DNA of 58,682 nucleotides, taken from the NCBI GenBank assembly GCA_031271205.1, contig JAISWG010000011.1, positions 1 through 58,682 on the forward strand. Reading direction: 5' to 3'. Shown here in pieces: positions 1 through 18,260 of this stretch (positions are counted from its first letter, which is position 1; each line of letters opens with the position of its first letter). Under the pieces are notes generated by a model. It ran no database searches. It had not been told where the DNA came from and was given only the letters and a program-made list of their open reading frames with translations. This DNA is from Endomicrobium sp. (GTDB lineage: Bacteria; Elusimicrobiota; Endomicrobiia; Endomicrobiales; Endomicrobiaceae). Both the position numbers and the translations under genes were made by a program.

Positions 1-335
1 TGGATATTTTGGCAGTTTTAAAAGAAGCGGCACAAACAAAAGCCGCTATTGCAGTTGAGAGAACAAAAGACACAATTAAACTTGTTTCCAGTAAAGAACA
101 AATATTAAAAACTTTAGACAGAAGCGTTTTAAGAAATGCGCAAACGCCTCAAATTTTTGAAACAAAACTTCTGAAAAAAGCATACTCAAAAAAAATTACT
201 GAAGCGACAACTGACGATTCGCAGGTTGTTGAAAGATTAAAAATCAAAATCTCAGCCGTTGAAACTAAGTTTCCTAATTTTAAAGTAACTACAAAGCAGG
301 ATTTTGCATTAGCAGAAAAACTATTAAAAAGGTGA
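1..335 (+). CDS. ispD: 2-C-methyl-D-erythritol 4-phosphate cytidylyltransferase, C-terminal part (cut by window edge)
   Basis: RNAQTPQIF...TDDSQVVE...NFKVTTKQDFALAE motif; frame open to window edge; followed by ispF. Confidence 0.85.
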   Translation, partial: DILAVLKEAAQTKAAIAVERTKDTIKLVSSKEQILKTLDRSVLRNAQTPQIFETKLLKKAYSKKITEATTDDSQVVERLKIKISAVETKFPNFKVTTKQDFALAEKLLKR

Positions 336-338
336 AAA

Positions 339-812
339 ATGTACATTGGATATGGATATGATGTTCACAGATTAAAAAAAGGAAGAAAGCTTGTTTTGGG
401 AGGTGTAGGAATACAAAGTCCTAAAGGACTTGACGGACACAGCGATGCCGACGTTCTTCTTCATGCTTTAATGGACGCATTGCTTGGTGCTGCAGGATTA
501 AACGATATAGGACATTTTTTCCCAAACACTGATATTAAATATAAAAACATATCAAGTCTTTTGCTTTTAGAATATGTTTACAAAGAACTAAAAAAGAAAA
601 ACTATAAAATTAACAATATAGACATTACAGTTATTGCAGAATCGCCGAAAATCTATCCTTTTATTGACGATATGAAAACAAACATCTCAAAAGTTTTAAA
701 CCTTCCAAAACAAAGAATTGGCATCAAAGCAACTACAAACGAAAAAATGGGGTTTTTAAGACGTGCCGAGGGAATAGCCGCAATGGCGGCAGCATCAATT
801 TCTGGAAAATAA
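339..812 (+). CDS. ispF: 2-C-methyl-D-erythritol 2,4-cyclodiphosphate synthase
   Basis: [44 protein letters not shown] motifs. Confidence 0.97.
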
Positions 813-825
813 AAAGGACGCCATA

Positions 826-2217
826 ATGATAAAAGTTCACAATACACTTTCAAATAAAAAAGAAGAATTTAAGCCTCAAAAAGAAAATTTTGTATCAATG
901 TATGTATGCGGTGTAACTCCCTATGACGAAGTTCATTTAGGACATGCAAGAGCATATGTCGTTTTTGACATTATAAAAAGACATCTTTTTAAAAGAGGAT
1001 ACAAAGTAAAGCATGTTCAGAATTTTACAGATGTTGACGATAAGATTATAAAAAGATCTCTGGAAAAGAATATTAAGCCTAACGAACTTACTCAGACTTA
1101 CATAGACGATTATTTTGCTCAAACAGATAAGTTAAATATTTTAAAAGCAGAAATTTATCCGAGAGTAACGCAAATGATACCTGAAATAATAAGTTTTGTA
1201 AAAGAACTTATAGATAAAAAGTTTGCTTATGAAATTGACGGTGACGTATATTTTTCAGTAGCTAAATTTAAAGATTATGGAAAACTTTCCAAGAAAAAGC
1301 TTGATGATTTGAAAGCAGGCACCAGAGCAGGAATTTGCAATGATAAAATTGCGGCATGCGATTTTGCTTTGTGGAAAAAGACAAAAGAAAACGAACCTCA
1401 AGAAGCCTCTTGGGAAAGCCCATGGGGAAAAGGGCGACCGGGCTGGCATATAGAATGTTCCGTTATGTCGTCAACTTTGCTCGGAAACACCATAGATATA
1501 CACGGCGGTGGACAAGATTTGATATTTCCGCACCACGAAAATGAAATTGCTCAAAGCGAAGCAAAAACAGGCAAACCTTTCGTTAAATATTGGATACATA
1601 ACGGCTTTGTTACTGTAAACAAAGAAAAGATGTCAAAATCTTTGAACAATTTTTTTACTTTAAAAACTATATTTGAAAAATATGATCCTAGTGTTGTCCG
1701 TTATTACCTTTTAACGCAACACTATTCTAGCCCTTTGGATTTTTTAGATGCTGGACTTGACACAGCAAAGAATACTTTGCAAGGAATGGTCGACGCGTAC
1801 TTAAGACTTCTTTCTTCTATTAATAGAGAATCAGTCAAAGAAATAACCGACAAGGATTTGCTGGATTTACAAGAAAGCTTTTTACAAGCGCTAGATGATG
1901 ATTTTAACTCTGAAAAAGCATTGTCTTATCTTCATGAATTAAAGAATATAATATTAAAAGAACTGTTTGCTGCAAAACCGCAAAGACTTGCGCAATTAAA
2001 GAATCTTTACGAAGATTTTGCTGAAAATTCTTTAGGAATTCTTTTGCCTAAAGAACAAAATAATAATGAGTTACAGAAACTTTTGAAAGACAGGAATGAA
2101 GCCAGAAAAAATAAAAATTGGGCGGAGTCAGACAGAATTAGAAATATTATAGATGAAAAAGGCTATAAAATAGTTGACAATAAAGACGGTCCATCAGTTC
2201 TTATGAAAAAGATCTAG
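826..2217 (+). CDS. cysS: cysteinyl-tRNA synthetase
   Basis: YVCGVTPYDEVHLGHARAYVVFD, WHIECSVMS, KMSKSLNNFF motifs. Confidence 0.97.
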   Translation: MIKVHNTLSNKKEEFKPQKENFVSMYVCGVTPYDEVHLGHARAYVVFDIIKRHLFKRGYKVKHVQNFTDVDDKIIKRSLEKNIKPNELTQTYIDDYFAQTDKLNILKAEIYPRVTQMIPEIISFVKELIDKKFAYEIDGDVYFSVAKFKDYGKLSKKKLDDLKAGTRAGICNDKIAACDFALWKKTKENEPQEASWESPWGKGRPGWHIECSVMSSTLLGNTIDIHGGGQDLIFPHHENEIAQSEAKTGKPFVKYWIHNGFVTVNKEKMSKSLNNFFTLKTIFEKYDPSVVRYYLLTQHYSSPLDFLDAGLDTAKNTLQGMVDAYLRLLSSINRESVKEITDKDLLDLQESFLQALDDDFNSEKALSYLHELKNIILKELFAAKPQRLAQLKNLYEDFAENSLGILLPKEQNNNELQKLLKDRNEARKNKNWAESDRIRNIIDEKGYKIVDNKDGPSVLMKKI

Positions 2218-2362
2218 TTTTTAACTCTACGCATCTTAGTTGACTCTTAGAGAAATCTTTAAGAATTCTCAACTTAGCAATATCGGCTTAGCCAAATCTA
2301 TGAAATCCGATACACTGTCTTGGATTTTTAGAAAAAAGGAATACTTTTAATTGTGCACCTTC

Positions 2363-3847
2363 TTATATTTCCCAAACAGGTATGGATATAATATCTTTGT
2401 TTGGCAAAGATATTGTTTTTTCGTATAGGCAAACTATAGCACCTGTGCCTATTTTTTTTCTTAAAAACAGATAGCGTTTTAAAACTTTTACAATCTTCAA
2501 TATTTGGGTTTGCAGTTTTCTTAACTTCTATTGGATATAAAGTCATATCTTTTTCAATAATAAAGTCAATTTCTTTTTGATCTGTATTGCGGTAAAAGAA
2601 AATATTCGGTTTATCTCCATTATGTAAATAAGACTTTAGAACTTCGGCAAATACGTAAGTTTCAAGCATGTGTCCGCTTTGCGCTCCGTTCATAAGAGAA
2701 TCTGGGGAATCCCAAGAACATAAAAATGACGCAAGTCCAGTATCAAGAAAGTAAATCTTAGGCGTTTTACAACTCTGCTTGCAATATTTGAACTATACGG
2801 ATAAAGCAACTGAATTACTCCAAAACATTCTAAAATCTCAAGCCACAATTTAGCTGTTCTTACATCAATATGAACATCTCTACTTTAATCGGAATAATTT
2901 ACCAATTGTCCAGTTCTTGCTGCAACAGCAACAAGAAAATTGTAGAAATCAATCTCTGAATCTATATTATAAAAATCTTTAACATCACGTTCTATATATG
3001 TTTGAATATAAGAATCATAAAAAAATTTTCTATCGGCATTTTTGTTGGCTATGATACGAGGGAAAGAGACTTTCCATATTTTTTCAAAAACTTCAGGCGA
3101 TGTAAGAGGTTTTGTTAATCTCTTATTTATAGCCAGTTCTTTAGATGGCAAAAATGGCTTTGATGAAAAAGGCTTTTTGATAATTTCTTTATATGAAAGC
3201 CCAAGCATATCAAGTATTGCAACACGTCCGGCAAGAGATTCTCTTACTCCTTTCATAAGTTTATATTTCTGAGAACCTGTAAGCCAAAATAATCCATCTT
3301 TATTCAATTTATCAGAGTAAACTTTAATATATGTAAACAATTCGGGGGCATATTGTACTTCATCTATTATAACAGGAGTCTGATGTTCTTGAATAAATCT
3401 TTCAGTGTCATTTTTTGCAAGATCTCGCACTTTTTAATCATCTAGCGAGACATATTTTCCTCCCCTTTCCGCTAAATGATTCATTAACCAACTTTTGCCC
3501 ACTTGTCTCATGCCAGTCAACAATAAAATAGGAAATCCCTTACTTACCCTTTCAATTACCGGCTGCATTGTCCTACGACTGCAAATTTAGGTCCTGGTTT
3601 TGCCCTTACTTACCCTTTCAATTACCGGCTGCATTGTCTTTAGAAAACGCAGCTGCTTCTTCCGCCGTCCCTTACTTACCCTTTCAATTACCGGCTGCAT
3701 TGTCTTTGGAAGAAAATGAAGGAACTATAAACAACCCTTACTTACCCTTTCAATTACCGGCTGCATTGTCATGTTTAAACTTATTAACTCAAACAAGCAG
3801 CCCTTACTTACCCTTTCAATTACCGGCTGCATTGTCCGCTTAAACAT
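2363..3847 (-). pseudogene. AAA ATPase of the DUF4143 family, disrupted by stops/frameshifts and by an embedded CRISPR-like array in its N-terminal codons
   Basis: Pieces LLLTGMRQVGKSW (P-loop), VIIDEVQYAPELF (Walker B), FWLTGSQKYKLMKGVRESLAGRVAIL, ARTGQLVNYSD, KEIDFIIEK, PIEVKKT spread over ORFs 2328-2693 and 2885-3430 plus non-ORF segments; in-frame TAA after YVSLDD, stop after NYSD, frameshift near VVK/TPKIYFLDTGL. Confidence 0.85.
3537..3836. CRISPR. CRISPR-like array: 5 identical 36-nt repeats (CCCTTACTTACCCTTTCAATTACCGGCTGCATTGTC), 4 unrelated spacers of exactly 30 nt
   Basis: Repeats at 3537-3572, 3603-3638, 3669-3704, 3735-3770, 3801-3836; spacers at 3573-3602, 3639-3668, 3705-3734, 3771-3800. 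Confidence 0.92.
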
Positions 3848-3884
3848 ACCGACATCTTTTCGGTTAATTATACATAGTTATGCT

Positions 3885-3913
3885 ATTTTAAACGAAAGGA
3901 ATATAGTTGTCAA
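3885..3913 (-). promoter_or_regulatory. Putative sigma70 promoter reading into the ATPase/array (TTGACA-17-TAAAAT)
   Basis: -35 TTGACA at 3913-3908, 17-bp spacer, -10 TAAAAT at 3890-3885, about 38 bp upstream of the reconstructed ATG at 3847. Confidence 0.6.
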
Positions 3914-3925
3914 GAACATGACAAC
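3906..3925. repeat. Inverted repeat GTTGTCA-AGAACA-TGACAAC overlapping the -35 element (operator-like dyad or terminator stem)
   Basis: 7-bp perfect arms, 6-nt spacer. Confidence 0.5.
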
Positions 3926-3934
3926 AATATAATT

Positions 3935-5023
3935 TTAATTCCGCTCTAAAGTTATAACTGCTATTTCGCTTGTGTTAAACAATCTCATAGGCGGTCCCCA
4001 GAGACGAGTTCCAGAAGTTATATACAGATTGGAGTTATTATTTTTGTACAATCCATAGTTATACTTCATAAAAAACTTACGTGCTATTTCAATCGGGGGG
4101 ATTTGTCCGGCATGAGTATGTCCTGAAAGCTGTATTATGCTGATTCCTTGATCTGAAGAAATGTCAAAAGATTCTGGATGATGGCTTAAAAATAATATCG
4201 GATAACGCTTATCAACATTTGATAGGGTTTTTGAGATATCTTCATTGCTTTGGTAATAAATATCGTCTATGCCAGCGACATTTATAATATTGCCAACAAC
4301 TATATTTTCGTTTCTTAAAGATTTAAAGCCCAATTTTTCTGTCATTGGAAAAAATTTATCCGTTCCTATGTAGTAGTCGTGATTACCTGTAACTACAAAA
4401 ACACCGTACTTAGCTTTTAATTTGCCAAACCCATAATTAAGATACTCGTCATTTTTGTTTATGTCCATATCTATAATATCACCTGTAATAACTATCATGT
4501 CAGGATTTAAAGCCATAGCTTTATCAAAAATTTTGTTTATAACTTTTGCAGAAGAAAATTGATTAATGTGTATATCTGAAAGCTGCACAATTCTTAAAGA
4601 GTTTACCGGCAGATTTGGAACTTTCAAATTCACTTCTTTAACGTTTAGAATAAATGCAAAGTTTAACAAAGACCAAATCAAAGAGGCTATGCTTAGAATT
4701 ATTGTCACAAGAGTTGAATAATATCTAAATTTTTTGTTTTTAAATATAATGCGGTTGACTAAATTTACAATATCGTTTATCAAAATAAAAGAAAAGAATA
4801 TACTCCATATGCCCATACAAATATATCCAAACGGTCCTATAATTGACATAATAGAGAGGTTATAGTGGTTGTCTATAAATGGCAAAACGCTTATAATGCC
4901 GAAAACAAAAAACATTGCGTATAAATAAATGTTGTGAGGATGCCGAATGTTTAAGCCTGAAGTTATCCTCCAAGGTATATAGATATATCCGAATAAATAA
5001 AGCGATGATATTAAAACAAACAC
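3935..5023 (-). CDS. Membrane-anchored metallophosphoesterase (YkuE-like)
   Basis: [40 protein letters not shown] calcineurin-type motifs; N-terminal TM segments. Confidence 0.92.
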
Positions 5024-5550
5024 TACTTTCTCCTTACTTTATTCATAAGAGCAGCTCTTGCTTTTAAAAGAAACTCAACGGCTATGGGGGACAAATAATC
5101 AGGATATGACCACGGAAGTTTTATATAGCTGTTTTTTTGATATATTGTCGTAACTTCGCCGTATATTCCTTTTTTTAAATAAATTCTGTGGCTGTAGTCT
5201 TTAGTTGTGGCAAGTATTACATTTGCTGGAGCTATATAGCCCGGATCAATATTTATTTTTCTTTTATTATCTATAGCAGAGCTATTTTCAATAGAATTTG
5301 TAAAAACTTTTATCTCAGCTAAATCCGCAGCAGAAACTAACTTTTCAAAAGAAATCCAAAAACGTTTTAAATTATCGCCCATCTCATGATTGTAATACTT
5401 TGAGAAATCAAAAGGCATCATATCGCTTATTAAATCAATTTTTCCAAGTTCTTCTTCAAGTTTCTCAAATGATTTTCGCTTTATCTCTTCGTTTGAAGAA
5501 ATTATTCCGCAAAACAACTTTACCTGTTTAGGTTCTCCTATAGCACCCAT
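5023..5550 (-). CDS. DUF4416-like protein
   Basis: [19 protein letters not shown] start and [33 protein letters not shown]; longer ORF to 5697 probably over-extended. Confidence 0.7.
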
Positions 5551-5696
5551 CTTTATCCTCTTTGAATTTCTTGCGGGTATATATTTGAGTTTACTACAAA
5601 AGTCTAAATTTGTAAAATCATTGCACCGAATGGGGGTTAGCAAACTTTTTCTGTCTGAATTTATATTATGTAACAATTCTGCAGCAAGGATTGCCA

Positions 5697-6188
5697 ATGA
5701 AAAAATCTTTTATTATTTTAATGTTTACATTTTCTTTTACAATTTCAGCATTCTGCACAAGAGATTTTATTGAAGGAATTGACTATACGATAGATTTTCA
5801 TGAAAAATCTCCTGAAATGGCAGCAACACTCCACGTCAATTTTGTGGGAGTTGTTCCAGAACCTAGCGAGGCTGAAAAAATAGTTAAACAAAAGTTAAGA
5901 ATATACGGTAACAATCTTATAGTAAGCAACAAAGTTATACGCACAGAAAAAAAAGAAACGCACTATAAAAACATTATCGGCTCAGCATGGAAAACAAATA
6001 CTACAGATCCTGCAAATCCAATAAAAATCAAATTCACTGAAGATCTCGCTGCGTATGTATGGCTTGGCAAAACAAAATCCATCGTCCCATTTCCTGACTA
6101 CATGACATTCCTAAAGAAAGAACAAAAAGACTTTAAGAAAAAACAACAACTAAATAAATCAAAAGAAGAAGACTCGACGCTTGCTTAG
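5697..6188 (+). CDS. Hypothetical secreted/periplasmic protein
   Basis: ORF with N-terminal signal-peptide-like MKKSFIILMFTFSFTISAFC. Confidence 0.6.
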   Translation: MKKSFIILMFTFSFTISAFCTRDFIEGIDYTIDFHEKSPEMAATLHVNFVGVVPEPSEAEKIVKQKLRIYGNNLIVSNKVIRTEKKETHYKNIIGSAWKTNTTDPANPIKIKFTEDLAAYVWLGKTKSIVPFPDYMTFLKKEQKDFKKKQQLNKSKEEDSTLA

Positions 6189-6387
6189 TGCAGACTATAT
6201 TTGTTTATTTGATACATATGGATTTCTCTAATAATCTCAATATTTTATAATTGCCGTGAGTTTGGCGACAATACAAGGCGAAAAACGCAGGTAATATTGT
6301 GTCTATATTGGCAAGTTTTTCAATGCTGCAGTGTTGCCAAAGACCCGGTAAGAATATGCGTTGAGGTTTTTAGAGATACCCCTATTT

Positions 6388-7653
6388 TTATTCATCTCTC
6401 ATAGAACAGAACTCGCCGCACATTGTGCAAACATCTTCTTGACGTGGTGGAAGTTTAGCCCTTTCTTTTGCAAACTTAATGGGATCAATGCAAAACTCTT
6501 TTTGCTTTTCCCAATTTCTGGCTTTACGCCATTTAGACATTTCGTTGTCACGTTCTCTTGCACCACAAACTCCTTTTACAATATCTGCCGCGTGGGCTGC
6601 AATTCTTGCGGCAATCACGCCTTCATGGACATCTTGGACGTCAGGAAGCCTTAAATGTTCCGCTGGTGTAACATAACAAATAAAATCTACACCTTTGGCT
6701 GCTGCTAAAGCTCCACCTATAGCAGAAGTTATGTGGTCATATCCAGGAGCAATATCTGTTACAAGAGGTCCCAAAAAGTAAAGAGGAGCATTGTACCCTA
6801 ATCTTTTGGCAAGAGTTACATTAGCTTCAACTTGATCTAACGGAATATGTCCAGGTCCCTCTATCATAGTTTGTACACCTGCAGCTCTTGCTTTCAAAAC
6901 AAGTTCCCCTAGGACTGAGAGCTCTGCAATTTGAGGACCATCTGAAGCATCAAAAAGACAGCCTGGCCTAAATCCGTCGCCAAGACTTAAAGTTATGTCA
7001 TATTTTTTTGCTATTTTTAAAAGTCTGTCATACTGCTCGTACAAGGGATTTTCTTTTCCTGTAGCGTTTATAGCTTTCACCAAAAAAGAACCTCCTCTAC
7101 TTACAGTTCCAGTAAGACGGTCTTGACGTTTTAGTATCTCAGTCGTTTCTTTGTTTATACCACAATGCACCGTAATAAAATCAACACCTTGTTCAGCCTG
7201 TTCTTCTATAATGTCAAACAAGAGTTCGCCATCAATCTGAAATATTTTTTTACCTTTTGCTATAATCCTACAAACCGCTTCATAAATAGGTACTGTGCCT
7301 ACTTGTACTGGACACACAGCAAGTATTTCTTTTCTTATTTGCGTTAAATTACCGCCAGTAGATAAGTCCATAACCGCATCTACGCCAGCTTTCACAGCAA
7401 TGCACAATTTTTGTAGCTCTTCATCCAAATCTATATGATCGGGAGAGGTACCTAAATTGGCATTAACTTTAGTTTTAAGCCCAGCACCAACTGCAACTAT
7501 TTTCTTAAGCGTTCTATTAACATTTTTAGGAATAACTATAGTCCCTGAGGCAACACCTAATCTAATAAAATCTTCACTTAAATTTTCAAAATGAGCAACA
7601 GATTTAATCAAGTCGTTTGTTTTTTTATTTTTTGCATCTTCCATAAGCGTCAT
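6388..7653 (-). CDS. thiC: Phosphomethylpyrimidine synthase
   Basis: DLSTGGNL, VDFITVHCGI, SRGGSF, SLGDGFRPGC, MIEGPGHIPLDQ, C-terminal CTMCGEFCSM cluster motif. Confidence 0.97.
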   Translation of the reverse strand: MTLMEDAKNKKTNDLIKSVAHFENLSEDFIRLGVASGTIVIPKNVNRTLKKIVAVGAGLKTKVNANLGTSPDHIDLDEELQKLCIAVKAGVDAVMDLSTGGNLTQIRKEILAVCPVQVGTVPIYEAVCRIIAKGKKIFQIDGELLFDIIEEQAEQGVDFITVHCGINKETTEILKRQDRLTGTVSRGGSFLVKAINATGKENPLYEQYDRLLKIAKKYDITLSLGDGFRPGCLFDASDGPQIAELSVLGELVLKARAAGVQTMIEGPGHIPLDQVEANVTLAKRLGYNAPLYFLGPLVTDIAPGYDHITSAIGGALAAAKGVDFICYVTPAEHLRLPDVQDVHEGVIAARIAAHAADIVKGVCGARERDNEMSKWRKARNWEKQKEFCIDPIKFAKERAKLPPRQEDVCTMCGEFCSMRDE

Positions 7654-17340: not shown

Positions 17341-18207
17341 ATGAAACTAATAAACGGCAAAGAAATATCAAACGGCTTAAGATTAGAAATTAAAGATCAG
17401 GTTAAAAAAATCAAACAAGAAACAGGAAATCTTCCAGGCATTGCAACAATTTTAGTGGGAAAAAATCCTGCAAGTCAAATATATATAAAATCAAAAATTA
17501 AGGCTTGCCAAGAAGTGGGGATTCAATCTTTCCACCACAATCTTGGTGAAAATTCTTCAAAAGAAAATATTATCTCTTTAATAAACAAACTAAACAAAAA
17601 CTCCGCGGTTGATGGAATTTTGCTTCAGTTACCACTTCCAAATAATAAATATACTCAAGACTGCATAAACGCAATAAATCCTTTAAAAGATATAGATGGC
17701 CTACATCCTCTTAATGCAGGTCTTTTGAATTTGTCAAAAAACTGGGATGAAATTATCAAAAAAAATATTTTAGTTTCTTGCACCCCATTAGGAATCATAT
17801 ATCTTCTTCACAAATCAAACATATCAATTGAAAGAAAAACAGCAATTGTCATTGGAAGATCTAACTTAGTTGGCAAACCTGTTTCAATGTTATTGCTTGC
17901 AAATAACGCAACGGTAATAATTGCTCACTCCAAAACTAAAAACTTAAAAAAAATATGCAAAAATGCTGACATTGTTATTGCAGCAATAGGGAACTCTAAA
18001 TTTTTAAACAAGAATTTTATAAAAGACGGAGCAACAATCATTGACGTAGGCATCAATAGAACTCCCGACGGACTATGCGGTGATGTTGACTTCAATTCTG
18101 TTAAAAACATGAATGTAACTATAACTCCTGTACCTGGTGGTGTAGGGCCAATGACAATAACAATGCTACTTGAAAATACGCTTAAAGCATTTAAAAATAG
18201 ATGCTAA
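17341..18207 (+). CDS. folD: Bifunctional methylenetetrahydrofolate dehydrogenase/cyclohydrolase
   Basis: GILLQLPLPN, IDGLHPLNAG, GRSNLVGKPVSMLL, TPVPGGVGPMTITMLLENT. Confidence 0.97.
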   Translation: MKLINGKEISNGLRLEIKDQVKKIKQETGNLPGIATILVGKNPASQIYIKSKIKACQEVGIQSFHHNLGENSSKENIISLINKLNKNSAVDGILLQLPLPNNKYTQDCINAINPLKDIDGLHPLNAGLLNLSKNWDEIIKKNILVSCTPLGIIYLLHKSNISIERKTAIVIGRSNLVGKPVSMLLLANNATVIIAHSKTKNLKKICKNADIVIAAIGNSKFLNKNFIKDGATIIDVGINRTPDGLCGDVDFNSVKNMNVTITPVPGGVGPMTITMLLENTLKAFKNRC

Positions 18208-18260
18208 TGACACAATAACAATGCTACTTGAAAATACGCTTAAAGCATTTAAAAATAGAT
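18154..18260 (+). repeat. Tandem duplication of the 3' end of folD (period 58)
   Basis: CAATAACAATGCTACTTGAAAATACGCTTAAAGCATTTAAAAATAGAT at 18155-18202 and again at 18213-18260. Confidence 0.95.

Follow-up and report, generated by a model that had tools for sequence, protein, structure and literature searches.

How does a CRISPR array come to lie inside a protein-coding gene, with a repeat that is itself part of that gene? This question is raised by a contig of Endomicrobium sp., a termite-gut symbiont; the window is the whole stretch that was analysed, 58,682 nucleotides in length. Off-target integration of spacers is a leading laboratory model for the origin of arrays with new repeats, and to our knowledge well-resolved natural cases of the birth of a new array are few. 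The window array bears on how such arrays originate: the sequence shows from which gene it arose, exactly which segment was duplicated, that it grew to four spacers, and that two of these have a chromosomal source. A preliminary description of the locus proposed that spacers were integrated into an ATPase gene, that 36 bp were duplicated each time, and that a new array was founded in this way. The proposal is supported by an empty site in a relative, by the array geometry of the genus, and by insertions in a second species, and the array was very probably founded in the ATPase gene by off-target type II Cas1-Cas2 integration with a 36-bp target duplication. All of the evidence comes from metagenome assemblies.

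Array structure and host gene

The array lies at window positions 3537-3836 on the minus strand and features five identical 36-nt repeats and four unrelated 30-nt spacers, as the preliminary description had stated. The repeats start at 3537, 3603, 3669, 3735, and 3801, which gives a period of exactly 66 nt, and the copies are identical at 36/36 positions. Pairwise comparison of the four spacers reveals likeness at only 7-12 of 30 positions. The 5 x 36 nt and 4 x 30 nt arrangement therefore falls within the structural definition of a CRISPR array (at least three near-identical direct repeats of 20-50 nt with unrelated spacers of constant size). The repeat reads CCCTTACTTACCCTTTCAATTACCGGCTGCATTGTC on the plus strand and GACAATGCAGCCGGTAATTGAAAGGGTAAGTAAGGG on the gene strand. 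Its folding stability as RNA is not above that of shuffled sequences, and Rfam models detect only tRNAs in the window. The window belongs to genome G000, a metagenome-assembled genome of 609,713 bases in 29 contigs that is 53.5% complete; a scan of all 609,713 bases gave no further copies of the repeat. The features of the locus are as follows.

3885-3913, minus: promoter-like site TTGACA-17-TAAAAT of the ATPase gene, directed into the array (sequence motif)
3837-3847, minus: first 11 nt of the ATPase gene (ATG TTT AAG CG), start codon to first repeat; same in G027
3801-3836, minus: repeat copy nearest the gene start (repeat scan, G027 alignment)
3771-3800, minus: spacer S4, CTGCTTGTTTGAGTTAATAAGTTTAAACAT; no source found
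3735-3770, minus: repeat copy
3705-3734, minus: spacer S3, TTGTTTATAGTTCCTTCATTTTCTTCCAAA; matches a pseudouridine synthase gene
3669-3704, minus: repeat copy
3639-3668, minus: spacer S2, ACGGCGGAAGAAGCAGCTGCGTTTTCTAAA; no source found
3603-3638, minus: repeat copy
3573-3602, minus: spacer S1, CAAAACCAGGACCTAAATTTGCAGTCGTAG; matches a homoserine-kinase-like gene
3537-3572, minus: repeat copy continuing into the remaining ATPase (GF PILLLTGMRQVGKS...)
3434-3436, minus: first nonsense codon beyond the array; sense codon in the G027 gene
2363-3847, minus: AAA_14/DUF4143 ATPase pseudogene, host of the array; intact 406-aa ortholog at locus L014 of G027, 3959-5179, minus
1-6199, no strand: segment with 94-98% identity to G027; the genome-wide 85-90% applies past about 6.1-7 kb (identity comparison)

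Counting from the ATG, 11 nt of the gene precede the array. The assignment of the host to the DUF4143-type AAA ATPases, with the array at the 5' end of the gene, agrees with the domains of the G027 ortholog (PF13173 and PF13635, with E values of 1e-27 and 1.5e-43), of which the window copy is a pseudogene. Collapsing the array to one repeat restores MFKRTMQPVIERVSKGFPILLLTGMRQVGKSW in one continuous frame, as had been described. In-frame stops are present in S3 and S1, and downstream of the array there are the nonsense codon at 3434-3436, a second nonsense codon in NYSD*, and one frameshift; the ATPase gene is therefore dead in the window.

The empty site in a related genome

Genome G027 is Candidatus Endomicrobiellum devescovinae, a member of the same genus (its contig matches JAIRYK010000022.1). 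The locus and its neighbours are conserved there at 95-96% identity (95.5% for the locus). Window positions 1-3573 align to L014 1603-5169 and positions 3801-6199 align to L014 5133-7548, and the two flank alignments overlap in L014 by only 36-37 nt, which is the repeat. The 36-mer is present there in a single copy that is identical to the window repeat at 35 of 36 positions and forms codons 4-16 of an intact 406-codon ATPase gene. G027 thus carries the empty-site allele, with one copy of the duplicated sequence that is co-linear with both flanks. This is the uninterrupted ortholog that the preliminary description had named as a check, and the alignment bears out its view that the flanks and the repeat are co-linear parts of one ancestral gene.

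Two further species, G016 and G031, have an intact ortholog free of any array; the copy in a third, G041, is damaged and likewise lacks one. The exact empty site and the array-free orthologs indicate that the array arose in situ and that its repeat comes from coding DNA duplicated at the target site. The segment is homologous in G016 and G031, and at the protein level homologs from Treponema and Fibrobacteria share a related N-terminus; together with the single copy in G027 this indicates that the sequence was a gene first and a repeat second. The single difference between the repeat and G027 is an A in G027, and all five repeats differ from G027 at this position. G016 and G031 have A there too, which makes a change in the window lineage, before the repeat was copied, the most likely course.

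An ordinary CRISPR array that was imported beside an ATPase fragment, with a reading frame that is continuous by chance, would also have the normal form seen here, and orphan arrays are common. However, the repeat is part of an intact open reading frame in G027 and has the homologs described above, and the relatives do carry the TMQPVIER-SKG segment; the preliminary description had named the absence of any such sequence ahead of FPILLLTG as grounds for dismissing its reading. A canonical array with the same repeat, which it had given as a further such ground, is found in none of about 100 relatives. The G027 empty site already refutes the import of a finished array, and its probability is close to nil.

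The array-bearing segment

Over its first 6.1 kb or so the window shares 94-98% identity with G027, whereas G000 and G027 are 85-90% identical genome-wide; the first 2.2 kb is also 96% identical to G025. At window positions 6100-7000 the match to G027 drops sharply, from about 96% to about 88% identity, with poor alignment at about 6200-6490. The identity to G027 and G025 places the array-bearing segment in the G023/G025/G027 clade, which also has the best-fitting alleles for S1 and S3, and from its sequence the segment looks like either a recombinant import from the G027 clade or one side of a two-strain contig chimera. Both flanks of the array are inside this segment, so the account of its origin is unaffected and the uncertainty concerns the host strain.

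The same identity step, near the left end of the contig, and the 53.5% completeness of the genome are what could be cited for an assembly or binning artefact, in which strains were joined in one contig and the array is foreign or misassembled. More than 2 kb, however, separate the step from the array, whose flanks both lie within one segment of 95-96% identity. A chimera would change the assignment to a host strain but would not remove the array or its origin, and misassembly would hardly yield five ordered and distinct repeat-spacer units. An artefact is therefore highly improbable.

Sources of the spacers

S1 matches a homoserine-kinase-like gene of G027 (a GHMP kinase, and a homoserine kinase by sequence) at 30/30 positions and its counterpart in the own genome at 29/30. 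S3 matches an RNA pseudouridine synthase gene at 30/30 in G023 and G025, at 29/30 in G027, and at 27/30 in the own genome. Two of the four spacers thus have a 100% identical chromosomal source in relatives, and none was found for the other two. Judging by the genes matched, the sources of S1 and S3 are core genes of the genus Endomicrobium, not phage. Exact copying from the own genome was rejected as their source: the own alleles differ at 1 position (S1) and 3 positions (S3), and both spacers fit the sister alleles better. The phage and plasmid comparison that had been suggested for the spacers gave zero matches for the array region, and S1 and S3 match chromosomal genes instead. For S2 and S4, searched in IMG/VR as 18-22 nt pieces, there were only partial matches, which extend to 19-22 of 30 positions and were taken as chance. 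The two protospacers of S1 and S3 have no evident flanking motif in common.

Two spacers of solo insertions in another genome, G006 (described below), match chromosomes of the genus at 93%. Chromosomal matches occur for 3 of 9 ectopic spacers (S1, S3, and the C24 spacer) and for 3 of 71 canonical type II spacers (Fisher p about 0.02), a small sample compared with the same local DNA for both spacer sets, in a databank that included loci fetched for S1 and S3 and where these two also match G027 and G000. The excess would fit an escape, by spacers that are outside expressed arrays, from the autoimmunity that purges self spacers from working ones. A type II-A system that loses Cas9 cleavage no longer prefers plasmids to the chromosome as the source of its spacers (PMC6990116). 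One canonical spacer of G014, AGAATAGATTTAAAATCAACCAACAAAAAA in the L052 array, is an exact match to the chromosome of the same genome (L202 6662-6691).

Type II systems and array geometry in the genus

Type II-C and I-C systems are found in a minority of Endomicrobia according to a published survey (PMC11257099), and cas1 is present in 8 of the 37 genus members searched. Searches for cas1 and cas9 gave no hit in the own genome, which is 53.5% complete, or in G027, at 92%, so the presumed agent, Cas1-Cas2, is not seen beside its product. G023 and G025 carry type II cas genes. In G006, G014, G024, and G025, every type II array adjacent to cas genes is built of 36-nt repeats that recur every 66 nt, and the lengths of the window duplication (36 nt) and insert (30 nt) equal those of these four genus members.

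The repeat sequence itself is a different matter. Against a reference set of five canonical repeats of the genus and class, among which the array maker's own repeat may be missing, the best match of the window repeat is 14/36, which random genomic 36-mers reach in 12% of cases (p about 0.12). The geometry thus indicates a type II integrase, and repeat similarity gives no backing for site recognition. The preliminary description had called the integration site a pseudo-repeat, which is not borne out. Of the comparison with cas genes and a canonical array that it had suggested, only the geometry agrees; the own genome yielded no cas1 or cas9 and the repeats of the genus are dissimilar. Likeness of the site to the native repeat is frequent in laboratory off-target cases and is not strictly defining.

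In one branch of the type II systems of the genus the Cas9 proteins (L057 6193-9447, L048 5734-8595, and L039 2041-3435) score far higher with the NCBIfam Cas9d model than with the general Cas9 model. The survey labels the type II systems of the genus II-C, and at the Cas9d-like loci cas4 was not noticed beside cas1 and cas2. In G024 a type II cas9 (C19:76432-79212, L056) has five in-frame stops and adjoins cas1 and a short array, and past this array, at the end of the C19 contig, there is an inverted repeat copy.

Solo insertions in G006

G006 has type II cas9, cas1, and cas2 and a 2-spacer array; a second, better-scoring cas1 is located on its contig C7. When 553 kb of this genome were scanned for repeats paired at a spacing of 40-109 nt, four 36+30 duplications and one 36+31 duplication emerged outside the canonical array. 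These solo duplications, 36 nt around 30 or 31 nt, are located as follows.

L039 3152-3253
L163 8766-8867
L176 5265-5366
L178 4413-4514
L161 11054-11156

One of the insertions is in frame inside cas9, and its collapse restores the Cas9 pattern seen in G014 and G009. Uninterrupted homologous DNA is present in G014 for the cas9 site and in G015 for the C22 site. Four of the six non-array repeat pairs of G006 fall on period 66 (binomial p about 6e-7). The C24 site resembles the canonical repeat of G006 at 19/36 positions (p 0.002), and the similarity of the other solo sites is not significant. A further pair on C18 (L175 5537-5645), a perfect 37-nt duplication around 35 nt with a period of 72, does not have the 36/30 geometry and was left out. 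By their form, the solo duplications look like independent off-target spacer integrations. Scans of this kind that covered 443 kb of G027, 364 kb of G014, and the remainder of the own 610 kb gave no solo 36+30 insertions. G014 is free of insertions and has type II cas genes, so the cas genes alone are not sufficient.

Tandem duplication, replication slippage, or a small mobile element might have made the window repeats without Cas proteins, and there are other tandem duplications in the genome. An exact 49-bp duplication with a 9-bp gap, for example, is found at window 18154-18260, where it overlaps the 3' end of a folD-like gene. Such processes do not account for inter-repeat segments that are mutually unrelated, all exactly 30 nt long, and in two cases matched to chromosomal genes, nor for the 36+30 geometry that is shared with the type II arrays of the genus and recurs at period 66 in G006. 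A non-Cas origin is extremely improbable.

Proposed origin and present state of the array

In the proposed mechanism, the type II Cas1-Cas2 of an Endomicrobium-type symbiont would have inserted a 30-bp fragment off-target, 11 nt inside the ATPase gene. The attack would have been staggered, and gap filling would then have copied the 36 bp enclosed by the two cuts. Three more insertions at the same site would then have given five identical coding-derived 36-mers and four spacers, with at least two of the spacers taken from Endomicrobium chromosomes. The geometry points to Cas1-Cas2 as the agent, which may have been the type II system of the G023/G025/G027 clade, the seeming source of the segment.

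An array of the same origin could now be at work: transcription would start at the ATPase promoter, and a type II effector would use the products, perhaps to attack the DNA of sister strains. The strong sigma-70-like promoter-like site directed into the array and the closer fit of S1 and S3 to sister alleles are in line with this. However, there is no Cas9 in the recovered genome, and outside the array the recovered genome half (53.5% complete) has no stretch of more than 12 nt that matches the repeat and could be a tracrRNA anti-repeat. An active array would also be in danger of targeting its own chromosome, since S1 and S3 mismatch the own alleles at no more than 1 and 3 positions, and no flanking motif common to the two protospacers was seen. 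Function as a working array is thus unsupported and very unlikely. With neither Cas9 nor an anti-repeat in the recovered half of the genome, the off-target array is probably a silent relic, and its self-derived spacers would be tolerated because it would yield no working crRNAs.

Relation to known systems

Off-target, or neo-CRISPR, integration by the type I-E Cas1-Cas2 of E. coli was reportedly described by Nivala, Shipman and Church in 2018, who are said to have also listed putative natural cases in Yersinia pestis and Sulfolobus islandicus. Passages of PMC9456107 and PMC11788318 cite their off-target integration in E. coli. The E. coli events and the window have in common a spacer inserted outside an array and a duplication of host DNA of repeat length. 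The window differs in that the genus has type II systems, four successive spacers are found at one site within a protein gene, an intact empty-site allele is present in a named relative, and independent solo events occur in a second species.

The type II-A Cas1-Cas2 of S. thermophilus shows low-level integration at non-CRISPR sites in vitro (PMC6895254), which likewise has a type II integrase acting outside arrays. Those events are likely half-site integrations into a plasmid at sites that resemble the leader-repeat junction, whereas the window and G006 have full integrations kept in natural genomes. The canonical type II arrays of Endomicrobia (PMC11257099) share the genus, the 36-nt repeat, and the 30-nt spacer with the window array, which differs in its unrelated repeat, in having no adjacent cas genes, and in a repeat made of ATPase coding sequence. 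Self-targeting spacers, reviewed in PMC6990116, also match chromosomal genes; in the window, however, the effector is not detectable and the spacers are exact to sister-clade alleles and imperfect to the own alleles. It is unusual that an array has grown to four spacers within a gene whose ancestral allele is also available, and that further events cluster in a sister species.

It is possible, and we propose it tentatively, that the type II Cas1-Cas2 of termite-gut Endomicrobia is a repeated genome-wide insertional mutagen that writes fragments of genus chromosomes into genes, and that some insertions grow into multi-spacer arrays with coding-derived repeats. If true, the insertions in Endomicrobia would be a natural route to CRISPR arrays with new repeat sequences. 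Cas1-Cas2 is a probable mutagen of host genes, cas9 included, and the single-spacer events of G006, which are several and independent, are usable for studies of rate and site preference.
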